From: Ignavibacteriota bacterium
GTDB lineage: Bacteria > Bacteroidota > Ignavibacteria > UBA10030
Reading direction: 5' to 3'
Assembly (NCBI GenBank): GCA_003142475.1
Contig: PLMK01000006.1
Coordinates: 77,667-109,757, forward strand
DNA: 32,091 bases
Positions 15,968-26,123 of the stretch are shown here, in pieces. The translations under genes were made by a program, and so were the position numbers. Each line of letters begins with the position of its first letter. Within the stretch, counting starts at the first letter, position 1. The notes under the pieces were generated by a model, which did not search any database, was not told where the DNA came from, and saw only the letters and a list, made by a program, of their open reading frames with translations.

Positions 15968-18445
15968 CTAATTCCGGCTTTCAAACGTTTTCCAGTCGTT
16001 AGCATAACGCTGAAGTCTCTCATCGACAAGTGCATTAATAGTGCCGGATTCAAAAGTGTTATTAGATTTCTTCTTTCCTGCTTTCTGTCCGGTAAGAATT
16101 TCTATTCCCTCATCGATGGATTTTACAGCGTAGATTGAAAATTTCTTTTTCTCAACTGCTTCGAATATTTCTCCACGCAACATGAGATCGTCCACGTTTT
16201 GGATTGGAATGATAACACCTTGTTTGCCTGTCAATCCGCGCGCCTTACAGACATCGTAGAATCCTTCAATTTTAAGATTTACTCCGCCAATAGGTTGAAT
16301 TTCACCTTTCTGATTTACTGAACCAGTTACGGCAATGTCTTGGCGAATGGGAACTTCTGAAAGACTGGAAAGGATGGCGTAGATTTCTGTGGATGATGCG
16401 CTGTCGCCATCGATGCCGCCATAAGATTGTTCGAATGTGATACTTGCATCCATTACTAACGGTTTATTTTGCGCAAACATGCTTCGAAAATATCCGCTGA
16501 GAATTGCTACACCCTTGTTGTGCGTTGGTCCGCTCAACTCAGCCTCGCGCTCTATATTGATAATGCCGTTTCGTCCAAGCGATGTGCGTGCTGTGATTCG
16601 CGATGGTTTGCCAAACTCATGTTCGCCAATCTCGTACACCGAGAGTCCATTTACTTGACCGATCTGTTCACCTTCAGTGTCGATCATAATTGTACCGTTA
16701 TGGATCATCTCTTGAATTTTTTCTTCCACTAATTTTACACGATAAATGCGTTCATCTAAAGCTTGTTCCACGTGTTTACCGAGAACGACCTCGGCTTCAG
16801 CTTTTCGTGCCCAGTAACTGGCTTCACGTGCTATATCAGCGATGATATTGAAGCGGGTAGAAATTTTTTGTTGGCGTCCCGCAAGCCGCACACCGAACTC
16901 GATAATTTGTGCGAGAGCAGAAGTGCTGAATGGAAGTAGTTTTTCATCATCGCAAATCATTTTTATAAAGCGTATATATTGAGACACAGTGCCTTTTGTC
17001 TTTGGCATTTCAAAATCAAAGTCCGCACGAATTTTAAAAATCTTTTTGAAATCATCGTCGCGGAAGTATAACAGGTTGTATAGTGCCGCCTCCCCGATCA
17101 TAATCACTTTCACATTAATCTCAATTGGTTCCGGTTTCAAGCTCGCGGCAGAAAATCCAAACAATGGTTCGTACGTTTGAATATCAATCAATCCAGTACG
17201 CAGAGTGCGTTTCAAATCTTGCCAAACACCCGGTTCGATTAATACATCGAGAGCATTAAGAACAAGGTATCCACCGTCAGCCCGCAGAAGAGAGCCGGCC
17301 TTGATTTTTGTAAAATCAGTGCGCCATATACCGCCTTTCTCAACATCGCGTTCTACGATACCAAATATGTTTTTATATTTTGGATTTGTTTCGATGATAA
17401 TCGAGACATGCTTTGATTCCGAATTATCGACTAGTACGTTAACTTGAAACTCTAAAAATCTATCTTCTTCTTTCTCTTCTTCTCCATTTTCTTGCTGTGC
17501 ATCCTGAGTTGGAAAAGCTATCTGTTGTTTACGAAATCGCTCAAGATTATTTCGTATGCTTGTACGTACTTCTTCAAAGTATGTGTGTAATTTGTGCTGT
17601 TCGTATGTCGCTTTTAAAACACCCAAGGCTTCATCAACTGCCGGCATAACAAGTTGTTCTTCTAATTCATTGAGCGATAGCTGTACTTTTTTTTCTATAT
17701 TCCGTAGTTCACGAAAAACAGTTGCCATTTGTTTTTCTAAATCCGTTAGCACATCGCGCATAGTCGCAAATTGTTCCTTGCTGAATTCATTCTTCTGAAC
17801 CAGAGTTTCTATTTGATCTAATCCCATGGGTGTCCCGTTCACTACAGGGACAATATCTGGCCGCGTCGCGTTGCCGGCTTGCACTTGAACAAGATCAAAG
17901 CCTCGTTCTTTCACACGCCGCTCGAAATCCTTCAAAACACTTTTCTGCCGTTCCTGAAAATGCATTATTAAATTCTTGCGCGCTTGCTGATACCGCTGGC
18001 TTTCGTATACAGCAGGCACGTCCCGTAATAATTCCTTGATAAAATTTTCCATATCCTGCTTTAGCCCTCGTCCTTGACCCGAAGGAAGAGAGATGGCAAT
18101 AGGTGCGTCCGGATTTTTAAAATTGTACAAATAGCAGTGGTCCTTCATCTGGCCCGGTTTTTTTTCGAAGTCTTGCAGAAGACGTTTGATAGTAGTCGTA
18201 CGCCCGGTACCAGTGATGCCTGTGACGAAAATATTGTAACCGTCGTGTTCCATCTCTAATCCAATGCGCAATGCACGCAAAGCGCGTTCCTGTCCAATAA
18301 TTTCGCGTGTAGGCTGTATGTCGTTTGTGGATTTTATACCGAGCGATTTTGGGTCGCACTGCCAGCGCAGTTTACGAACTTGCAGCGGTTTATGAATAGG
18401 CGCAGATTTATGATGAGTTGTTTGAATGACGGTTTTCTTTTTCAT
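15968..18445 (-). CDS. Lon-like ATP-dependent protease (LonB/YcbZ type, AAA_32)
   Basis: This 825-residue AAA+ serine protease is of the Lon-related type that lacks the classical Lon N-domain. The P-loop is GITGTGRTT (76-84), with Arg82 in place of the usual Lys, a variant I believe is common in this branch. A long helical insertion (about 130-320) lies inside the ATPase, followed by ADGGYLVLNALDVLIEPG (Walker B region) and a sensor helix. The proteolytic domain has the Ser682/Lys725 dyad (DGDSASSTE and GGVNLKIEGF). QDIAVTGSVNQKGEIQPIGG is typical. No signal peptide or membrane anchor is seen, so it degrades cytoplasmic proteins. It is the first gene of the set leading into the K+ channel. 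Confidence 0.93.
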   Translation of the reverse strand: MKKKTVIQTTHHKSAPIHKPLQVRKLRWQCDPKSLGIKSTNDIQPTREIIGQERALRALRIGLEMEHDGYNIFVTGITGTGRTTTIKRLLQDFEKKPGQMKDHCYLYNFKNPDAPIAISLPSGQGRGLKQDMENFIKELLRDVPAVYESQRYQQARKNLIMHFQERQKSVLKDFERRVKERGFDLVQVQAGNATRPDIVPVVNGTPMGLDQIETLVQKNEFSKEQFATMRDVLTDLEKQMATVFRELRNIEKKVQLSLNELEEQLVMPAVDEALGVLKATYEQHKLHTYFEEVRTSIRNNLERFRKQQIAFPTQDAQQENGEEEKEEDRFLEFQVNVLVDNSESKHVSIIIETNPKYKNIFGIVERDVEKGGIWRTDFTKIKAGSLLRADGGYLVLNALDVLIEPGVWQDLKRTLRTGLIDIQTYEPLFGFSAASLKPEPIEINVKVIMIGEAALYNLLYFRDDDFKKIFKIRADFDFEMPKTKGTVSQYIRFIKMICDDEKLLPFSTSALAQIIEFGVRLAGRQQKISTRFNIIADIAREASYWARKAEAEVVLGKHVEQALDERIYRVKLVEEKIQEMIHNGTIMIDTEGEQIGQVNGLSVYEIGEHEFGKPSRITARTSLGRNGIINIEREAELSGPTHNKGVAILSGYFRSMFAQNKPLVMDASITFEQSYGGIDGDSASSTEIYAILSSLSEVPIRQDIAVTGSVNQKGEIQPIGGVNLKIEGFYDVCKARGLTGKQGVIIPIQNVDDLMLRGEIFEAVEKKKFSIYAVKSIDEGIEILTGQKAGKKKSNNTFESGTINALVDERLQRYANDWKTFESRN

Positions 18446-20275: not shown

Positions 20276-21598
20276 CTAATGTTCTGTTTCTTCTTCAATA
20301 GATACTGGCAATTTTTTTATTCGGATCGATTCGACAGCGTTATCGACAACCTTTTCTGTTGTGAACTCAATGCCGTTGAGTCGCATCCGTTCGCCTACGG
20401 AGGGAATATGCCCAAGTTGTTCAATCAAAAATCCACCGATTGAACGGATATCTAGAGGCGAAAATTCGATTGAAAAGAGTCGTTCAACATCGTTTGTAGT
20501 GATATTACCGGCCACAATAAATTCATTTTCACTAATCTTAACCACATCAGGTGTTTCTCGATCGAACTCATCTTGAATATTGCCGACAAGTTCTTCCAGC
20601 ACATTCTCCAGTGTGATGATACCCGCTGTGCCACCATATTCATCAGCGAGAATAATCATGTGGGTTTTTTTCTGCAGACTTGTGGTCAGTACTCTTTCGA
20701 GTGAGGCTGTTTCCGGTAAAAATGTAGCATCACGCAGAACAGAACTCAATGTAAAGTCTGGTTGCAGGTGTTTGTTATGTTTGAATATATCTTTTGTATA
20801 AACGATGCCGATAATATTGTCAATGGTATCTTTGAAAACAGGAAAACGAGAAAACTTATTCGTACGCATTATGGCAAGAGTTTCATTGACTGGTACCTGA
20901 ATGGATAGAGCAACAATCTCTCTTCGGGGAACCATCGAATGGCGTGCTTGTTTCTGGTGAAAGTCCATAGCATTGAGTGCGATATTTCGTGTAGTTGCAG
21001 AAACATGTGTATCGTGGGCAAGAATCAGACGGAGTTCTTCTTCTGTATGAGCTAATTCAGAATCCGTTGATGCTTTAATTCCAATGAGTCGAAGCAAGCC
21101 GTTGGAGGAAGAATTGAGTAAAGCGATTATCGGTTTGAACAGGAAGAAAAAAATACGCATCGGTGAAGAAACTAGAAGAATGGTTTCACGGGATTTTTGA
21201 ATGGCAAGTACTTTCGGTGCTTGTTCACCGACGACAATATGGACTGCTGTAATTAACGCGAATGCAGCGACGAATGAGACACCATGAATAATTTCAGGCT
21301 GTGTAATCCCCATCCATTGAAATGCAGGAAGGAGCATTTTTGCGGCAAGCGGTTCGCCAATCCATCCAAGGACCAAGGATGTCATGGTAATTCCCAGTTG
21401 TGTTGCTGAAAGGTACGCTATTGAGTGGAGAAGTATATCGCTGGCAATCTTAGCCTGCCAGTTTCCTTTGATCGCAAGTAGTTCAATTTGCGTGAGGCGC
21501 ACTTTAACAATGGCAAACTCTGCAGCAACAAAAAATCCATTGAGGAAAACAAAGATAAGAATTATTAAAATATCAACGATGTATTGCCCGAACTCCAT
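20276..21598 (-). CDS. CNNM/CorC-type transmembrane protein (DUF21-CBS-CorC_HlyC)
   Basis: This 440-residue membrane protein of the old hemolysin-C/UPF0053 family is now regarded as a Mg2+/Co2+ transport or sensing family. The DUF21 membrane domain (about 1-195) contains EFAIVKVRLTQIE and ATQLGITMTSLVLGWIGEPL. A CBS pair follows (about 205-330; SMVPRREIVAL, FSRFPVF, IIGIVYTKDIFK, MIILADEYGGTAGIITLENV). The CorC_HlyC domain (about 345-430) has FDIRSIGGFL-type features. EELVGNIQDEFD after the CBS pair is the standard junction. It likely affects divalent-cation homeostasis and may bind adenine nucleotide through the CBS pair. It has its own strong promoter and could lead the DUF72-nth transcript. 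Confidence 0.92.
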   Translation of the reverse strand: MEFGQYIVDILIILIFVFLNGFFVAAEFAIVKVRLTQIELLAIKGNWQAKIASDILLHSIAYLSATQLGITMTSLVLGWIGEPLAAKMLLPAFQWMGITQPEIIHGVSFVAAFALITAVHIVVGEQAPKVLAIQKSRETILLVSSPMRIFFFLFKPIIALLNSSSNGLLRLIGIKASTDSELAHTEEELRLILAHDTHVSATTRNIALNAMDFHQKQARHSMVPRREIVALSIQVPVNETLAIMRTNKFSRFPVFKDTIDNIIGIVYTKDIFKHNKHLQPDFTLSSVLRDATFLPETASLERVLTTSLQKKTHMIILADEYGGTAGIITLENVLEELVGNIQDEFDRETPDVVKISENEFIVAGNITTNDVERLFSIEFSPLDIRSIGGFLIEQLGHIPSVGERMRLNGIEFTTEKVVDNAVESIRIKKLPVSIEEETEH

Positions 21599-21714: not shown

Positions 21715-24579
21715 TTACCGGCGTACTTGTTCCGAAATCCAGCTAAGGTACGCTTCGAGGCGCGTAAGGAAGTTGACATATGCAGTTGACCATTCGGTTG
21801 GACTGTCGGGCCTGTTTTTACCAAGCAATTCTTGAAATACACGCGCAACTTCTACGGCAAGTCTCTTTTTACCTTCTTCAATTACAGCTTCGACATCGGA
21901 AGAATAAAACGTACGCAGGTTTCGGATATCTTGTCGAACACGAGCTTCTGGACCTTTGCTTGCAAAGAAAGATAAATCTGTATTCTGACCGCCGGACATT
22001 TCGTAGATCAACAAATTCCATTTTTCCATCACATCGCGAAAATTCTTTTCATCATCGCAGGCATCCAAAGGCAGTTTGCGCATTGCTTCTTCTGTGGAAA
22101 AAGAATTACGGAAGATCAGATCACCCCCGACGAATTGTGATACAAGATTTACATCGGTGCGCCAGCCGAGTACACGCTGTACTGCGATGAAAACTTCTTG
22201 TTCCTTGTCATGTCCGGTATTGATAGCAAGCTTCGTTTCCCATTGCTTTGCCATCTTTTTCATTTGAATTTCAAGCTCGTGATCTACCTTCTCTTTTGGA
22301 TCGCCAATCGATGCCGCCGGAACAACTATCTGTGGTTTATTGCGGTACAACATATAAAGTTCTTCTCGCGATTTCCGATCCAGATCGTCGAATTTCTTAA
22401 CGGCGCTTGCACATGATAATTGCTGTTCATCTGCTTGCGTCTGAAGCAACATCAATAATCGCGTGAAGAGGCGATCTGGGTATAGAGATCTGAAGTGCGA
22501 CATATCTGCAATGATGTACAAGTCGTTGCCGACGCAGGAAAAAACCGTGTTAAAAAGACGTGCAATTTTGTGTTCACCGATCTTTTTATCGTCGATGGAA
22601 CGCATAGTGTAATCCACGCCCGCCATCGTTGTATCAAAAATAATTGCTTCTTTGCGTCGGTTACAAAAACTTTGTGGTGTGCCGACTTCAACATTTTTTA
22701 TCCCTTGCAGCCGCAAATGAAGCTTAGTGTAAAGTGTTGGACCGGTGAACGGGAGAATAATTCCCACATCCAATGCACGTCGATTGGGTCCCATTAACGC
22801 ATGTTTAACACACTCGATTACTTGCTTTGTTTGGAGTTCATTATAAGGCAGAATTTTTTTTCTGCCGGCATATTGTTTACATCGAGATTGGACTTTGCTT
22901 GTGTCAATAAAATAAATTCTACCTTTTGCCTTTGGCGAAGCATGAAGAGTTATTTTTTCATCAAATAAAACCGATGCCATAAACAATGATAATTTTGGAG
23001 TTGTGGCATAGTGTGTCTTCATGAAAATTGACCAGCGTGGATTTCGTTCTGACCAATCAAAAAGCTGATGCAGTTGAGTCGTTTGTGCAACATGTAGAAA
23101 AATATCACGCTGAAGCCAATGCTCGCTTTGCTCATCCGTAGAGACAGATTCGGGTTCCACCTGAAACGGATCGCCCGCAACGATAAATTTCTCTCTCGCT
23201 AGCGTTGATAATGCGGTAAGTGTTGGCAGATTGACGCGTTGAGCTTCATCCACAATAACTAAATCGAACTGCTGATTACGTATGGCGGGATCTATCAATG
23301 CTGCTGAAATACCAGTTGCAATAAAGAGTTTTGATTGCAGCAATGCTTTTTCGTCAACAGAAATAAAATCTTCTACTGCCTTTGTGACTTTATCCAATCC
23401 GCCCAAATCATCAATTCTTTTGCCGATTTCTTTAAATTCTAAAAGCTCCCGAGGTGCAATTGGTGCGCCGAGTTCAATCTTATCGATTTCGTTCGAGATT
23501 GTTTGCTGAATGGAAAGTAATCGTTTGTGGTTCTGTTGATGCCGTGTTAATTGCTCGTTCGCTTGTTCAAGATCACTCTTGGAAAATCCTTTTTTCATCC
23601 GTTCGATGAGCGATGAGTTTTCCAAATCAACAATGATTTGATTGAGCTGCGTAATTTCTTTTGATGTTTGGTCGAGTTGTTTTCGAAGCCCTGCTAACCG
23701 GTCACGTTTCTCCTGTACCCGAAGATAAAAATCCTCATGAAGAATTTGTTTAACCTTAATTTGCCAATAAGTATTTAACAATGCTACGCGTTCTTGGAAC
23801 ACCTTGCGCTTTTCAACTTTCGCAGTTTCAACTTGGTGCTCAAATGAGTACTGTGCAATGGTGTCGAATACATCGGGTGAAGGGAGATCTACACGAGCTG
23901 CAAACTTCGTCATTTTGACGCCAAGTTGTTCGCCGAAACTTGCAGTTTTCAATAGCATGGAGTCGACGTTATCATTAGACGGCGCAACGAAAAGCACCTT
24001 TCGACCAGCTTTTATATAACTGAGTGCAGTGAGTGCTAATACGTGTGTCTTGCCCGAAAGAATTGGACCCCACACCATCGTGACTCTGTTCTGTAAAATC
24101 TTTTTTACGATATCGAGCAATTCAGGCGGCGTGGTCGCAACACCTTTTGTTTCAAAACTAATAATATGGTTGTTTCTTCTATCTGCTGGATTGAAAAGCA
24201 ATTGCGGAATTGGGGATCTTTCATCAATCCTCTGAAGCAAATCAATAATTGGCTTGTGTTCGTCTTCATAATTCCAAGAACATTTCGTTTCTGGTAGAGA
24301 TATGCCGAAATCTTGCGGCAGAGCGACGATGAAAAATTGATTTTCGATAGCAATAATATTACCGGTAACGCTAATAGGTTGTAGCTGCCCAAACGTGAAT
24401 GTAGCATGTTCTGTGGTGCGGAGAAGGATATCTTCGGGAATTTCAAAACGATAGTACGTATATCCTGCAAATGCACCGATGCGTTCACCGCTGAACAGAC
24501 GTATTTCGCGGCGAGTAACTTTGAGCTGCTCAAGTTCTTTCTGAAGCGCTTCGGCTAGTTGTGTGAATAGTTCTTTCAC
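21715..24579 (-). CDS. UPF1-like superfamily-1 P-loop ATPase with degenerate helicase motifs
   Basis: This 954-residue cytoplasmic protein has the architecture of DNA2/NAM7/UPF1-type helicases. Residues 1-110 look like a beta-rich N-domain. Motif I is GPILSGKT (171-178). A long coiled coil (about 245-370) is inserted between the ATPase strands. Motif II is VIVDEAQ (441-447) and motif III AGDPFQ (468-473). The usual QYRMHP motif is THYATTP (522-528), so the Arg is Ala. Motif V, normally SFQG.E, is SFCNRRKE (637-644). Motif VI, normally NVALSRAR, is NTVFSCVG (677-684), so both Arg are lost. ATP binding is expected, but classical helicase activity is doubtful. The last 200 residues contain GGDLIF and a helical tail that I do not recognise. 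It stands alone, divergent from hpnE. Substrate and role are unknown. Confidence 0.8.
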   Translation of the reverse strand: MKELFTQLAEALQKELEQLKVTRREIRLFSGERIGAFAGYTYYRFEIPEDILLRTTEHATFTFGQLQPISVTGNIIAIENQFFIVALPQDFGISLPETKCSWNYEDEHKPIIDLLQRIDERSPIPQLLFNPADRRNNHIISFETKGVATTPPELLDIVKKILQNRVTMVWGPILSGKTHVLALTALSYIKAGRKVLFVAPSNDNVDSMLLKTASFGEQLGVKMTKFAARVDLPSPDVFDTIAQYSFEHQVETAKVEKRKVFQERVALLNTYWQIKVKQILHEDFYLRVQEKRDRLAGLRKQLDQTSKEITQLNQIIVDLENSSLIERMKKGFSKSDLEQANEQLTRHQQNHKRLLSIQQTISNEIDKIELGAPIAPRELLEFKEIGKRIDDLGGLDKVTKAVEDFISVDEKALLQSKLFIATGISAALIDPAIRNQQFDLVIVDEAQRVNLPTLTALSTLAREKFIVAGDPFQVEPESVSTDEQSEHWLQRDIFLHVAQTTQLHQLFDWSERNPRWSIFMKTHYATTPKLSLFMASVLFDEKITLHASPKAKGRIYFIDTSKVQSRCKQYAGRKKILPYNELQTKQVIECVKHALMGPNRRALDVGIILPFTGPTLYTKLHLRLQGIKNVEVGTPQSFCNRRKEAIIFDTTMAGVDYTMRSIDDKKIGEHKIARLFNTVFSCVGNDLYIIADMSHFRSLYPDRLFTRLLMLLQTQADEQQLSCASAVKKFDDLDRKSREELYMLYRNKPQIVVPAASIGDPKEKVDHELEIQMKKMAKQWETKLAINTGHDKEQEVFIAVQRVLGWRTDVNLVSQFVGGDLIFRNSFSTEEAMRKLPLDACDDEKNFRDVMEKWNLLIYEMSGGQNTDLSFFASKGPEARVRQDIRNLRTFYSSDVEAVIEEGKKRLAVEVARVFQELLGKNRPDSPTEWSTAYVNFLTRLEAYLSWISEQVRR

Positions 24580-24746: not shown

Positions 24747-26123
24747 ATGTATAAATATGATGCAATAATTATCGGCGGTGGGATAAGTGGATTAAGCGCG
24801 GCAGTAGAATTATCTGCACTTGGCAGTAAGGTTTTATTGCTGGAACAGCACCAGCATTGCGGCGGACGTACACATTCTTTTTTCGATACTGCTACTGGCA
24901 GCACTGTGGATAATGGCCAGCATCTGATGATGGGATGTTACCACGCAACACGCCGATTTCTGCGATTGATCGGCACTGATGATCTTGCTTTACTCCAGCC
25001 GGCGCTTAGGATTGATTTTTTGCATCCATCTCAAAATGCTAATCATCTTTTGTGCGCCCGGTTTCCTGCGCCTTTACACCTGTTGGGTGGATTGCTTGGA
25101 TTCACTGCAATTCCATTCAAAGACCGCTTAAAAATGCTTATGGTGGCAAAGGAATTGATTAACACGTCGCCAGAGAAAGAACTGGAATTAGATCGGCTCA
25201 CCGTAGAAGAATGGCTCACAAAGCTTGGACAGTCTGAAATAAGTAGAAAGTATTTGTGGGATGTCATTACGATTGGAGCACTGAACAATTGTCCACAGGA
25301 TGTTTCGGCGCTTATGTTGTTCCGTGTTTTGTGCGCCGCGTTCCTTGGAAATAGAAAAAATGCAAGTCTGTTAGTTCCGCATGTTGGATTGAGCGAATTA
25401 TTTGTGGATCCGGCGGTGCAATTCATCAAAGCTCATGGTAGTGAAGTTCGCACCGGCATTGGTGTAGAGAGTATGATATTTGAAGGAACATATGTTCAAT
25501 CAATACGAACCTCGGAAGGGAAGGAACTTCAAGCAAAGTCATTCATCAGCGCAATTCCGTGGTATTCATTTGAAGAAATTCTATCGGTAAGTCATCAAAA
25601 TTCGAAACCTGGAGATGACAAAAAAAATGTCATTTCAGACTGCCATCTAAAAGCGGATTTTAAATCTTCATCTATCATCTCTATTCATCTCTGGCTCGAC
25701 AGAGAAGTTACCGATCTCGACTTTGCCGCATTGCTGGAGACTCGTATCCAATGGCTCTTCAATAAAAGTAAATTATTAAATGAGAGAAAAGAAATAACAG
25801 CAGCTCGTCAGTATCTTTCGTTGGTTATCAGTGGTGCGGAGGAATTTATCAATTTGAATAAAAAGCAATTAGTAGAAATTGCGATGGAAGATTTGCGGCG
25901 AGTCCTGCCGCAAGCACGCGGTGCAAAAGTCATTCACTCGTTGGCGATCAAAGAGAAGCGTGCTACGTTTATACCTTCACCGGGACTTGAAGCGCTTCGT
26001 CCCAATGCACGAACAAAATTTGAAAACCTCTTTCTCGCCGGCGACTGGACTGCAACAGGTTATCCTGCCACTATCGAAGGTGCGGTGATAAGCGGAAGAA
26101 GAGCGGCGGAGTTGATTGGATGA
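24747..26123 (+). CDS. hpnE: Hydroxysqualene dehydroxylase-like FAD oxidoreductase
   Basis: HpnE converts hydroxysqualene to squalene, the last step of the bacterial HpnCDE squalene route feeding hopanoids or other triterpenes. At 458 residues it fits the family. The N-terminal FAD fold is IIIGGGISGLSAAVEL, then LEQHQHCGGRTHSF. The diagnostic segment is DNGQHLMMGCYHATRRFLRL. WDVITIGALNNCPQDVSALM and the C-terminal FLAGDWTATGYPATIEGAVI also match HpnE, more closely than phytoene desaturases or protoporphyrinogen oxidase. hpnC, hpnD and squalene cyclase are not in this window, so the end product is inferred. GAGAG lies about 7 nt before ATG 24747, and the palindrome TCTCAT-A-ATGAGA (24727-24739) overlaps that region. 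Confidence 0.87.
   Translation: MYKYDAIIIGGGISGLSAAVELSALGSKVLLLEQHQHCGGRTHSFFDTATGSTVDNGQHLMMGCYHATRRFLRLIGTDDLALLQPALRIDFLHPSQNANHLLCARFPAPLHLLGGLLGFTAIPFKDRLKMLMVAKELINTSPEKELELDRLTVEEWLTKLGQSEISRKYLWDVITIGALNNCPQDVSALMLFRVLCAAFLGNRKNASLLVPHVGLSELFVDPAVQFIKAHGSEVRTGIGVESMIFEGTYVQSIRTSEGKELQAKSFISAIPWYSFEEILSVSHQNSKPGDDKKNVISDCHLKADFKSSSIISIHLWLDREVTDLDFAALLETRIQWLFNKSKLLNERKEITAARQYLSLVISGAEEFINLNKKQLVEIAMEDLRRVLPQARGAKVIHSLAIKEKRATFIPSPGLEALRPNARTKFENLFLAGDWTATGYPATIEGAVISGRRAAELIG

Follow-up and report, generated by a model that had tools for sequence, protein, structure and literature searches.

A probable UPF1-like pseudohelicase retained under purifying selection in one order of Ignavibacteria-type bacteria

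Pseudohelicases are already known as a kind, and the documented ones are few. RecC and AddB each operate in association with an active helicase-nuclease. It has been shown that their SF1 fold carries degenerate motifs and has been kept as a binding module for Chi recognition (PMC4824097). PriA of Deinococcus radiodurans has lost ATPase and unwinding activity and has kept the binding of DNA and partners (PMC4504706), and Utp25 is retained with a helicase fold and vestigial motifs (PMC9539457). The protein described here resembles UPF1 and IGHMBP2 (SF1B) in that a stalk, a beta-barrel 1B, RecA1, a helical prong 1C and RecA2 follow each other in the same order. On the other hand, it lacks the arginines of motifs IV and VI and the glutamate of motif V, its prong is enlarged and a C-terminal domain has been added. 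Its likeness to RecC and AddB lies in degenerate helicase-like domains which, as proposed here, are kept for binding; unlike RecC and AddB it has no such operon partner at its loci. As in D. radiodurans, the helicase copy of one bacterial lineage has been converted, although PriA is an unrelated helicase of a known pathway that has been tested biochemically, whereas the present protein is known from sequence and a model. Utp25 differs in being of the DEAD-box type and in acting in eukaryotic ribosome assembly. No report of a Upf1-like pseudohelicase or of this family was found in the open-access literature searched.

The window analysed here is a stretch of 32,091 nucleotides of an Ignavibacteriota genome. 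The gene occupies positions 21715-24579 of the window; its frame begins with GTG at 24579, ends with a stop codon at 21717-21715 and holds 954 codons. The preliminary description had given this frame of 954 residues, which is indeed open throughout and is read from the minus strand, on which all the features of the gene lie. An AlphaFold2 model of the protein, made with an alignment of 32 relatives, has a mean pLDDT of 86.7 and a pTM of 0.85, with low confidence at residues 651-660 and 747-790. When residues 1-726 were compared by VIA-align, they matched yeast UPF1 (Z 24.4, rmsd 4.2, 456 aligned), human UPF1 (Z 24.3, rmsd 3.7, 539 aligned) and IGHMBP2 (Z 24.1). Profile search, Foldseek and VIA-align all gave the same UPF1 core, and the family profile picks up UPF1, IGHMBP2 and Sen1 among solved structures; thus the UPF1 likeness proposed earlier was borne out by structure prediction. 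The Pfam family AAA_11, the RecA1 half, is found in the window protein with 71.9 bits (cut-off 27). AAA_12 (PF13087), the RecA2 half, stays under its cut-off in the window protein and exceeds it in many family members. With TIGR00376 (IGHMBP2 family helicase) the window protein scores 61.8 bits, below the curated cut-off of 348.9, which is also missed by the two intact relatives tested (146.9 and 190.6 bits).

The model thus predicts a Upf1-like SF1B fold, with a RecA1-RecA2 core and the insertions of stalk and barrel (1B) and of the prong (1C). Since residues 1-726 superpose on UPF1, the N-terminal 150 residues (24130-24579) are the stalk helix and beta-barrel of subdomain 1B; the VIA alignment begins at model residue 1, which corresponds to UPF1 299, and this region is also matched in the intact relatives described below. 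The first part of RecA1 (residues 151-234, 23878-24129) carries motifs I and Ia, and the second part (residues 411-500, 23080-23349) carries motifs II and III. Between them lie the 176 residues of a helical coiled coil (residues 235-410, 23350-23877). RecA2, which was delimited by the VIA alignment and PF13087 searches, is degenerate and covers residues 501-712 (22444-23079). It is followed by a linker with a low-confidence stretch (residues 713-790, 22210-22443), the least conserved region of the protein, and by an all-helical C-terminal domain (residues 791-954, 21718-22209).

The nearest relatives found are eleven intact proteins of 637-738 residues (L113-L123). They belong to four further families of the phylum and match the family profile with 256-353 bits. 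They carry GPPGTGKT, DEAS/DEGS/DESS and GDPMQLPP as motifs I to III, and QYRL or QYRM, TFQGREK and motifs of the SRSK, SRAK or TRAK type at the positions of motifs IV, V and VI. Together with three more distant helicases they make up 14 intact helicases with 53 invariant columns, among which are the Lys of motif I, the Glu of motif II, the Gln of motif III, the Arg of motif IV, the Glu of motif V and the Arg of motif VI. The eleven share the N-terminal domain, VEVGT, FDTvMsG and ADMxH with the window family and differ from it in having intact canonical motifs, a prong of about 89 residues, no C-terminal domain and different chromosomal neighbours. Because the FDT-M-G, R-D-K-G and ADM-H patterns of the motif V-VI stretch are common to both, the alignment from motif V through VI is secure. 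The degenerate proteins form one clade with a support of 100/100 against more distant helicases. The same clade was recovered with a support of 100 when the eleven intact relatives were included, in a quick version of the tree whose careful search is unfinished and in which long branches were flagged; E-values and trees depend on the genomes sampled. As intact relatives elsewhere in the phylum carry every canonical motif, the family is one clade of converted helicases. No synteny was seen between the intact relatives and the window, so that orthology is judged from the tree. An AsmA/YhdP-like large gene and a GntR-type gene stand beside some of the intact relatives and are not common to all. 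L113-L123 represent a widespread, intact, compact UPF1-like helicase for which no curated name fitted the member tested (146.9 bits). In another intact UPF1-like helicase (L075, 732-3875) the place of the prong is taken by a long coil, and the C-terminal part resembles, by eye, a phospholipase D-type (HKD) nuclease.

The residues expected to couple ATP hydrolysis to movement were followed in 40 family members, which come from two families of one order. In the window protein THYAT (residues 522-526, 23002-23016) stands for QYRL/M of motif IV, SFCNRRK (22651-22671; SFCNRRKE at residues 637-644) for TFQGREK of motif V and NTVFSCVG (22528-22551; SCVG at residues 681-684) for NVAFSRSK of motif VI. 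Thus R703, E833 and R865 of UPF1 correspond to Ala525, Arg642 and Cys682, and neither of the two gamma-phosphate arginines (motifs IV and VI) is present. It was found that none of the 40 members has the motif VI arginine (Cys in 25, Thr in 11, Ser in 3, Leu in 1) and none the motif V glutamate, which is replaced by Arg in 29. Since these losses are common to all members, chance and sequencing error are excluded. The preliminary description, whose quoted motif strings (GPILSGKT, VIVDEAQ, AGDPFQ, THYA, SFCNRRKE, SCVG) are all present, had claimed that both arginines are lost and had proposed fixation across homologues as a check. Fixation holds for motifs V and VI, while an arginine in the QYR context of motif IV survives in a single member, L028. 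Because L028 keeps QYR and is already without the motif V and VI residues, we infer that the arginine of motif VI and the glutamate of motif V were lost first and the arginine of motif IV later, with the reservation that L028 sits on a long branch. SNTN of motif Ia and the His of motif V, at which contacts with nucleic acid would be expected, have likewise been lost.

The two additions to the core are of a different nature. The coiled coil is located between motifs Ia and II, which is the position of subdomain 1C in UPF1, and is an enlarged subdomain 1C, or prong in the nomenclature of PMC5452015, and not a new domain. The coil and the unassigned C-terminal domain noted earlier are both present, the coil having 176 residues and its counterpart in the intact relatives about 89. 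The C-terminal domain is absent from all eleven intact relatives and was seen in this clade only, that is in two families (8 of the 395 genomes of a phylum-wide sample). It had no Pfam match above chance, and a comparison with known folds gave a Foldseek E of at best 0.24 and a VIA Z of at most 6.7, which is in the range for common helical arrangements and is no proof of a new fold. Nothing like it was found in viral contigs, plasmids or phages.

A single copy of the gene was found in 29 of the 32 genomes of the window's family, one of them with a split frame, and in 25 of the 26 that are at least 90% complete. A second family of the order has it in 12 of 22 genomes, and it is missing from all further families sampled in that order. 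The split copy (L037, G016:C139:601-3340) lies in two frames near residues 198-227, which could be an assembly error, a frameshift or decay. Among pairs of members whose synonymous sites are not saturated, dN/dS was 0.07-0.13, which indicates strong purifying selection. The lowest entropy is found in residues 626-712 of RecA2 and in the C-terminal domain, which together hold 41 of the near-invariant columns, and constraint has moved away from the half that contains the ATP site.

Our data indicates that the protein is probably a pseudohelicase, a converted UPF1-like helicase which would have given up its motor function and serve as a static scaffold for binding; we place the probability of this reading at about 0.68. 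The ancestor would have been an intact SF1B helicase of the UPF1/IGHMBP2 type in one order of Ignavibacteria-type bacteria, in which the prong would have grown into the coiled coil and the helical C-terminal domain would have been gained. ATP would no longer be coupled to strand movement, and the working surface of the scaffold could be formed by the motif V-VI face of RecA2 together with the C-terminal domain. Such a scaffold would probably bind nucleic acid, a partner protein or both. Nucleic-acid binding is likely and, because the contact positions in motif Ia and at the His of motif V are eroded, not assured. Pseudohelicases are a kind and not a homology family; their mark is a helicase fold with degenerate catalytic motifs retained under selection, which the protein shows in its predicted structure and its sequence.

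The state of the ATP site bears on whether nucleotide could have any role in such a protein. The window protein has kept motif I, the Walker A GPILSGKT (residues 171-178, 24046-24069), motif II VIVDEAQ (residues 441-447, 23239-23259) and motif III AGDPFQ (residues 468-473, 23161-23178). The earlier statement that ATP binding has been kept fits these motifs and does not extend to the whole family, as the Lys/Thr of motif I, the Asp-Glu of motif II and the Gln of motif III are intact together in 5 of 40 members, four of them besides the window protein. Motif II has its catalytic Glu in 9 of 40 members (Asp in 29), and motif III its Gln in 23 of 40. In Walker A the Lys (Lys177 of the window protein) and the Thr/Ser are each kept by 36 of 39 members, and the GD of motif III is kept in nearly all members of the window's family. 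The frequency of the lysine suggests that nucleotide may still matter in most members, where the retained P-loop may hold it as a structural ligand. Three sister species from the genus to which the window belongs (L004-L006) have lost the lysine (SGTT, SSTI) and have also changed the Asp of motif II to His (HEAQ). As one subclade has lost it, the P-loop is dispensable. In the second family (L035, L036, L038, L077, L134-L140) these sites have decayed in another way and further, motif III being ADVTEQPP or a similar string and motif I in most cases GERxRGKT.

It is possible, though on balance unlikely, that the protein is a nucleotide-gated switch in which retained ATP binding opens and closes the RecA cleft and no translocation is driven by hydrolysis. 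The widely kept Walker A and GD residues speak for such a switch, and Arg642 stands at the position of E833 of UPF1, where simulations of the E833K change have shown a basic residue in contact with AMPPNP (PMC6888360). The loss of the arginines gives no argument for it, because R703A and R865A of human UPF1 were reported to be defective in both the binding and the hydrolysis of ATP, and K498A in its binding (PMC6888360). Moreover, the Gln of motif III and the Glu of motif II are not fixed, and the gene remains under selection where the Walker A lysine is lost: L004 and L005, the one lysine-less pair that was measurable, gave a dN/dS of 0.12. The regional divergence ratios, examined for extra relaxation of RecA1, are higher in the lysine-less species (0.86-1.73 vs 0.61-1.00) and yet uninformative, since a clade with the lysine intact has ratios just as high (1.27-3.04). 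The preliminary description had proposed a switch or scaffold and not a helicase; repurposing is the most likely explanation and the scaffold is preferred, whereas a switch working by ATP binding is difficult to reconcile with the lysine-less species.

Arg642 lies beside the triphosphate; in the 29 of 40 members that have it, it may have assumed a phosphate contact and could partly replace a lost arginine. A more doubtful elaboration is that the finger has migrated, the Glu of motif V becoming Arg642 as the arginines of motifs IV and VI vanished. The protein would then be a nucleotide-locked, non-cycling clamp with its output through the C-terminal domain, and one subclade would later have become nucleotide-free. 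The lysine-less species still have Arg642, which disfavours a role in ATP binding alone. It is highly improbable that the protein is still an active helicase with arginines supplied by other segments such as Arg642, Arg660 or Lys666. Around motifs V-VI, Arg642, Lys643, Arg660 and Lys666 show full or almost full conservation, and the low model confidence at 651-660 makes their placement unsure; on the other hand intact relatives with canonical arginines have Lys643, Arg660 and Lys666 equally, so that these are no replacements, Arg642 is conserved in the window's family and absent from the members of the second, and the motif II glutamate is not conserved. A decaying gene or functionless relic heading for loss can practically be dismissed, for although one copy is split and the gene is missing from a small number of genomes of the window's family, most of them incomplete, the frame is full-length in 39 of 40 members, dN/dS is about 0.1 and the extra domain is conserved.

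The intact relatives, the members with an intact P-loop, the one surviving QYR and the subclade without the Walker A lysine form a natural series. This opens the question in what order a motor was dismantled and for what purpose it is kept, as the lineage has kept the gene for very long despite the loss of residues that link ATP to movement.

A role in defence or in mobile elements was considered and rejected, as PADLOC gave generic matches at the AAA_11 level only (MkoA), no defence-like neighbours were seen among the window genes scanned and neighbours elsewhere are unrelated. Pairing with an intact UPF1-like paralogue was likewise rejected. The genome has no AAA_12 protein over the cut-off, the single weak match being UvrD-like by inspection, and the pseudohelicase is therefore unlike an accessory copy of an intact helicase. 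Close downstream, at 20276-21598 on the minus strand, is a gene for a CNNM/CBS (GldE- and PaeA-like) membrane protein, which follows the pseudohelicase in 15 of 19 loci of the window's family. It is weak evidence for a conserved operon partner, because the gene follows in 0 of 4 loci of the second family and is conserved together with other inherited neighbours. On the other side a divergently transcribed hydroxysqualene dehydroxylase HpnE gene is located at 24747-26123 (420 bits, over cut-off), and the gap of 167 bases between it and the pseudohelicase should contain both promoters. Further away, at 15968-18445, is a gene for a LonB/LonC-type protease (AAA_32, LonC helical domain, Lon_C), which adjoins genes for an Nth-type glycosylase, a DUF72 protein and a K+ channel, all on the strand of the pseudohelicase.
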